A stretch of DNA of 8,937 nucleotides from a bacterium (GTDB lineage: Bacteria; UBP15; UBA6099; JAJRTR01). The notes under the pieces are model-generated. The model did no database searches and had not been told where the DNA came from. It worked only from the letters and a program-made list of their open reading frames with translations. Shown piece by piece: positions 305-690 of the stretch (the stretch's first letter is position 1; each line of letters opens with the position of its first letter). The DNA is taken from NCBI GenBank assembly GCA_024278215.1, contig JAJRTR010000092.1, positions 1 through 8,937 on the forward strand. The letters run 5' to 3'. The translations under genes and the position numbers were made by a program.

Positions 305-327
305 AAAAAAAGGCCAATCGGCCTTTT
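305..327 (-). terminator. Rho-independent terminator of the small leftward gene
   Basis: A perfect hairpin AAAAGGCC-aatc-GGCCTTTT lies at 308-327. Read leftward it is a GGCC/GGCC stem followed by seven T (311-305), the classic intrinsic terminator form. It starts 36 bases after the stop codon of the small gene at 363, which supports that gene being real. Read rightward it also ends in four T, so it may work in both directions. Confidence 0.8.
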
Positions 328-362
328 ATCAACCACTCTTGCAGGTACAGGTGACGGATATT

Positions 363-545
363 TCAGATGTATATGTCTATATTCGGCACACTTCCAGGTC
401 CGATATTCTTCATCGGTTTCGCTTCTGTCATCACCGAAGCTTTGTCGACCTGGAAAAGTTGGATAAGAATTTTCCCCTGTGTCTGTCGAAGATCTGAAAT
501 CATCGCATCCATGTATCCAAAATTTGTCCCCGTTATACCGTTCAC
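363..545 (-). CDS. Small 60-residue protein, unknown; possibly YjfB-type motility-associated
   Basis: The product has 60 residues, begins MNGITGTNFGYMDAM (GTG start) and ends PNIDIYI. No signal peptide or membrane segment is visible. The case for a real gene is its setting: an AAAGGGAGGG ribosome site 6 bases before the GTG, a sigma-28-like promoter at 663-690 and an intrinsic terminator 36 bases after the stop. Small proteins of the YjfB group (putative motility proteins) have similar length, a central helix with a QG-type segment and a C-terminus ending in an IDv-type motif. The middle (QTQGKILIQLF) and end resemble this loosely, and such genes are known to be sigma-28/sigma-D dependent. 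The family call is tentative. A second in-frame GTG at 578, with GGAGGA before it, would give 71 residues. The Shine-Dalgarno of the shorter form lies inside a hairpin (554-574). Confidence 0.55.
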   Translation of the reverse strand: MNGITGTNFGYMDAMISDLRQTQGKILIQLFQVDKASVMTEAKPMKNIGPGSVPNIDIYI

Positions 546-553
546 TTTACACC

Positions 554-574
554 CTCCCTTTGAAAATAAGGGAG
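554..574 (-). promoter_or_regulatory. Hairpin covering the ribosome binding site of the small gene
   Basis: Perfect 7-bp inverted repeat CTCCCTT-N7-AAGGGAG. In the leftward transcript the 3' arm (AAGGGAG) is the Shine-Dalgarno of the GTG start at 545, and the 5' arm (CTCCCTT) would pair with it and block it. An alternative in-frame GTG at 578 with its own GGAGGA lies just before the hairpin, so ribosomes starting there would melt it. This looks like a translational control element or a two-start arrangement. The pairing is seen directly; the regulatory role is inferred. Confidence 0.5.
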
Positions 575-662
575 CCACTTTTCTTCCTCCGTGAATCAAA
601 GTAACTTCTTTATAGAAACAACCTCCGTGTTGTTCCGTATTACTATTTCAACTTCTATTTAT

Positions 663-690
663 GTATCGGCATTTTTTTCTGTGAAGTTTA
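663..690 (-). promoter_or_regulatory. Candidate sigma-28 (FliA/SigD) promoter for the small gene
   Basis: On the minus strand TAAA (690-687) is followed after 16 bases by GCCGATAC (670-663). The FliA consensus is TAAA-N15-GCCGATAA, so 7 of 8 bases of the -10 match and the spacer is one base long. Transcription would start near 656 and give a leader of about 110 bases. No comparable sigma-70 promoter was found in this interval. The spacing deviation keeps confidence moderate. Confidence 0.45.

Follow-up and report, generated by a model that had tools for sequence, protein, structure and literature searches.

CsrA has the SELEX consensus RUACARGGAUGU, which works best when displayed in a loop of six bases above AC/GU pairs; the protein binds ANGGAN hexaloops, and it represses from a hairpin together with a site on the Shine-Dalgarno (PMC7652899). 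CsrA covers the Shine-Dalgarno of hag, and FliW relieves the occlusion (PMC6529632). Small RNAs that depend on sigma-28 act on flagellin in E. coli, FliX being one example (PMC10578931), and sigma-28-dependent non-coding RNAs are also described in Campylobacter (PMC4626219). Furthermore, YjfB, an uncharacterised small protein, co-occurs with the sigma-28 module (PMC11607428).

The window (the whole stretch of DNA that was analysed, 8,937 nucleotides) contains, on its minus strand, a small gene that resembles these systems in several respects. With good probability, it is a late (class III-type) flagellar gene that is transcribed by sigma-28 and repressed by CsrA with relief by FliW, and whose product is a YjfB-like accessory protein; judged by its sequence, it very probably belongs among the late flagellar genes, and annotation based on protein families would overlook it. 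Its sigma-28 (FliA) promoter, TAAAC-N15-GCCGATA (equivalently TAAA-N16-GCCGATA), conforms to the sigma-28 type TAAAG-N15/16-GCCGATAA and lies at 664..690, with TAAA at 690-687, then 16 nt and GCCGATA at 670-664; the same motif stands before flagellar genes. The open reading frame of 60 codons (363..545), which is backed by homologues and by the coding pattern among them, begins with a GTG at 545-543 preceded by GGGAGGGTGTAAA and ends with a stop codon at 365-363. An intrinsic terminator, AAAAGGCC-GATT-GGCCTTTT plus a T-run (308..327, minus strand), is the top-listed one of the window and begins about 35 nt past the stop codon. Promoter, GTG frame with Shine-Dalgarno and terminator were thus all found where the first-pass annotation had placed them, the terminator at a distance that it gave as 36. 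It had called the unit self-contained, which overlooks a CsrA-type leader between promoter and reading frame.

This leader contains two CACGGAGG motifs of the CsrA consensus, 36 nt apart, at 629-622 and 593-586. Both are predicted to fold as ACGGAG hexaloops, and the leader is more stable than its shuffles (z -4.2). The first hairpin, GGAACAAC-ACGGAG-GTTGTTTC (615..636, minus strand), presents a CsrA-type ANGGAN hexaloop with a closing pair probability of 0.99, while the second (574..605, minus strand; closing pair probability 0.98) holds the second CACGGAGG and a Shine-Dalgarno in its loop and GTG 578 in its stem. That GTG (576..578, minus strand) is in frame with the main reading frame and has its own Shine-Dalgarno at GGAGG-N7-GTG spacing, which is the second CACGGAGG motif itself. 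The start codon is ambiguous, and with this GTG in use the product would have 71 aa in place of 60. A further hairpin, CTCCCTT/AAGGGAG (554..574, minus strand), sequesters part of the Shine-Dalgarno that serves GTG 545. The leader therefore shows what is found in CsrA-repressed leaders of the glgC/hag type, namely a GGA in an ANGGAN hairpin loop and a GGA over the Shine-Dalgarno, here that of GTG 578.

Two CACGGANG motifs with starts 33-37 nt apart are present in the leaders of G000, G001, G002, G005 and G006. Stem differences between leaders are partly compatible with pairing (AACAAC/GTTGTT vs GACGAC/GTTGTC; inner TTC/GAA vs CC/GG). A well-formed hairpin 1 is predicted for the window and G002, whereas the G005 version is bulged and that of G001 weak. 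Against shuffled sequences, a clear gain in folding stability was seen for the window leader only, with no significant gain for those of G001, G002 and G005. In G001, G005 and G006, a GTG equivalent to that at 578 opens a short leader frame that stops 3-4 bases short of the main start, an arrangement that suggests translational coupling of the two. The paired CACGGAGG is absent from the paralogue in the same genome and from a second group of homologues (G001, G003, G004, G006); hence, control by CsrA does not extend to the whole family. It should also be noted that one more site with two CACGGAGG motifs, on C98 of the own genome, was considered as a flagellar leader and rejected because it sits at the end of an unrelated reading frame, and that Rfam gave nothing above threshold for the start of the window, the paralogue locus or the csrA-flagellin loci.

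The flagellin genes of these genomes, judged by their upstream regions, have the same leader layout as the window gene. An ANGGAN hairpin with a stem of at least 5 bp occurs in 8/18 flagellin leaders against 0/81 control upstreams (shuffle mean 0.07), and CANGGAGG serves as the Shine-Dalgarno in 13/18 against 0/81; the controls are the upstream regions of 81 long, unannotated reading frames of the own genome and the flagellin leaders are related to one another, so that these figures serve as contrasts and not as probabilities. Each of the seven genomes has a single copy of csrA, which in the genome of the window adjoins fliW. As a separate observation, a conserved GGAGGTGnnAAnGGCTACC element without an Rfam match lies upstream of the csrA-adjacent flagellin (L073, L075, L079) and is possibly a structured RNA.

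A TAAAG promoter precedes flgL within a flgK-flgL-fliW-csrA-flagellin stretch (C51; FlgK, flagellin-type FlgL, FliW and CsrA by Pfam). It is from this gene order, together with the leader architecture that the window gene has in common with the flagellins, that we infer control by CsrA and FliW; given the paired CACGGAGG leader, its flagellin-like layout and the presence of csrA and fliW, its transcription by sigma-28 and repression by CsrA, much as for flagellin, are probable. Sigma-28 polymerase would transcribe it once FliA is free of FlgM, as the promoter and the company it keeps in the regulon suggest. CsrA dimers would then occupy both GGA hairpins, masking the Shine-Dalgarno at 590-586, until flagellin export frees FliW and repression is relieved, as for Bacillus hag. 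The small product would thereby be made in step with flagellin, most likely as a YjfB-like flagellar accessory protein.

The first-pass annotation had suggested that the gene could belong to the sigma-28 motility regulon as one of its scattered members, and the sequence evidence supports this reading well: fliA is present in the genome, scoring above its curated cut-off, the motif precedes flagellar genes, and the promoters of the homologues are sigma-28-like (TAAAG/TCAAG/TTAAG-N15/16-nCGATA). The pattern TAAA-N15..17-GCCGATA occurs at 24 sites in the 4.5 Mb genome, compared with 8 for the reversed control. When the matches were read singly and those with TAAAG, a 15/16-nt spacer between TAAA and GCCGATA and an intergenic position were selected, all preceded a flagellar gene, a paralogue or a small RNA. 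Besides flgL, these are fliD (C146, by Pfam), an flgM-like gene (C180; named from its sequence, with no Pfam match), a flagellin with an inserted stretch (C170; flagellin by Pfam, its probable start lying several hundred bases downstream of the site), a paralogue of the window protein (C14) and the small RNA (C156). In the C170 flagellin (L035, G000:C170:36984-37355, minus strand), the flagellin N-domain is confirmed and the insert resembles by eye a VWA domain (DVVWVLDRTGSMGPPLA). Flagellin-N matches number 7 to 21 per genome across G000-G006, with 15 in the own genome, some of them in open frames of 900-1000 residues. None of the window genes scanned is flagellar, as had been noted before; these neighbours are metabolic or of unknown function, and include isocitrate/isopropylmalate dehydrogenase, DUF4097, methyltransferase, radical SAM, RidA-like and MaoC-like genes.

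The protein had been described as an orphan, which does not hold. A paralogue at C14:9851-10009 is 36% identical to it, and homologues of nearly equal length occur in each of the seven genomes sampled from the order, the own genome and six others, with profile-search E values down to 1e-27 in the latter; the conservation in related genomes on which the earlier proposal depended is thus in place. The relatives found are metagenome-assembled genomes, and those named among the seven include UBP15_UBA6099 and ADurb.Bin236. No convincing homologue was found outside the order among 290 genomes, and no relative in the viral collection. Residues M1, Q23, L27, L30, P44 and D57 (window numbering) are invariant across the family, most members have a PLANI/L block, and synonymous changes prevail between close homologues (e.g. 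15 synonymous vs 2 nonsynonymous codons).

A likeness to YjfB had also been suggested, with PF14070 as the family to search. The PF14070 HMM gives no match up to E 10 for the window protein and its eight relatives (0 of nine members), nor any match in the own genome, and formal assignment to the family was accordingly rejected. An hhalign comparison with a profile of 13 PF14070 proteins is weakly suggestive at best, with a local match over 19 of 60 columns (probability 24%, E 0.0008). Nevertheless, the two families are alike in size (about 60 aa), in their termini (M-D/S ... D-I/V-x-A, with a C-terminal DI/DV-x-A ending), in a common QGxxLLxL stretch and in having sigma-28-type promoters, which precede several PF14070 genes of other phyla; the exact form TAAAG-N15/16-nCCGATA was seen before 3/16 PF14070 genes examined in the sampled genomes. 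The window family differs in its failure to match the HMM, its CsrA-type leader and a conserved PLANI/L block before the C-terminus that the PF14070 members examined do not show. Thus, although not filed as a member, the window protein may work like YjfB. That it is a true but diverged YjfB, a view compatible with our preferred explanation and in keeping with the co-occurrence of YjfB and the sigma-28 module (PMC11607428), we hold to be somewhat less probable than the opposite, given the HMM result, the short profile match and the bona fide PF14070 gene that G002 has beside its window-type gene. This gene (L106, G002:C391:2281-2433, minus strand) has a TCAAG-N15-GCCGATA promoter.

Other readings depart further from a late flagellar gene. 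The transcript of about 350 nt, made under sigma-28 and bearing two near-consensus CsrA sites, could act mainly as an RNA, its GGA hairpins soaking up CsrA during sigma-28 activity, with the protein secondary; in Campylobacter, the flagellin mRNA is described as dual-function in the CsrA-FliW network (PMC4894983). However, only two sites are clear, whereas known sponges such as CsrB have many, the second lies on a Shine-Dalgarno as in repressed mRNAs, and the protein is conserved across the order with its homologues under coding constraint, all of which makes this reading improbable. We consider it more improbable still that the promoter is a chance match before a gene unrelated to motility. 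The window indeed lacks flagellar neighbours, and some pattern matches elsewhere in the genome fall inside genes, but the same promoter precedes the paralogue and the homologues, and the leader is of the flagellin CsrA type.

Outside the window, the paralogue is followed by an element of about 70 nt, as are the homologues of G001, G005 and G006. This element appears to encode a small RNA that comprises a hairpin, a free CUCCUCCU and a terminator, and it has its own TAAAG/TTAAG-N15/16 promoter with a -10 resembling CCGATA. Eleven copies with a nearly identical 30-base core occur in the seven genomes, two of them at G000:C14:9723-9790 (L081) and G000:C156:2493-2560 (L087), both on the minus strand, the others being L080, L082-L086 and L088-L090. 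Three blocks of the RNA are complementary to the csrA-adjacent flagellin: the 5' end UUGACAUGGUU matches the start region AACCAUGUCAA, CUCCUCCU the Shine-Dalgarno of the same gene, and GAGCCACC a stretch some 30-45 nt upstream. The three blocks are collinear in 7/7 genomes, although pairing of the third is less certain in that it would need the terminator to be opened. In the four genomes computed, the duplex reaches -49 to -59 kcal/mol (z -3.8 to -6.4), and the target stretch occurs once per genome, in one flagellin mRNA each. Complementarity to the start codon and Shine-Dalgarno points to repression of this flagellin. A duplex with the window mRNA (-45 kcal/mol, z -3.4, at GTG 545) was dismissed, since the complementary stretch was not seen in the orthologous leaders. 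Outside the order, the best match (G228) covers the terminator only.

Taken together, these results favour, on balance, an undescribed flagellar circuit in a UBP15-like candidate phylum, one in which a small protein family under sigma-28 control and flagellin-type CsrA hairpins is paired, in sister genomes, with a free-standing small RNA driven by sigma-28. If so, the output of the csrA-adjacent flagellin would be set both by CsrA-FliW and by an antisense RNA made under the same sigma factor, and the late flagellar regulon would gain a small protein family in a lineage known here from metagenome-assembled genomes alone. CsrA control of flagellin-type leaders would be readable from sequence in this lineage and would extend to a non-flagellin gene. 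A small RNA with one matching flagellin target in each of seven genomes makes a testable prediction on how flagellin is limited, and the conserved leader offers a starting point for working out what YjfB-like proteins, uncharacterised though linked to the flagellum, actually do.

Among known systems, the CsrA-FliW switch on the hag leader of Bacillus subtilis is the nearest to the window leader, in that a GGA site lies on the Shine-Dalgarno and fliW-csrA is present; hag has, in addition, a GGA site further upstream and a promoter for sigma-D. Unlike hag, the window leader controls a 60-aa non-flagellin protein, its motifs are 36 nt apart, and the start covered by CsrA is separated from the main start by a leader reading frame. 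The companion small RNA is of a known kind, given the sigma-28-dependent small RNAs of E. coli and Campylobacter, while it has no match of its own in Rfam. Like MotR, FliX, UhpU and FlgO of E. coli and CjNC1/CjNC4 of Campylobacter, it would be controlled by sigma-28 and act on flagellar mRNA, and it is predicted to lower flagellin, as FliX does. It differs from all of these in being free-standing with its own promoter, in being seen only in this order, and in that it is complementary to one flagellin at its start codon and Shine-Dalgarno.
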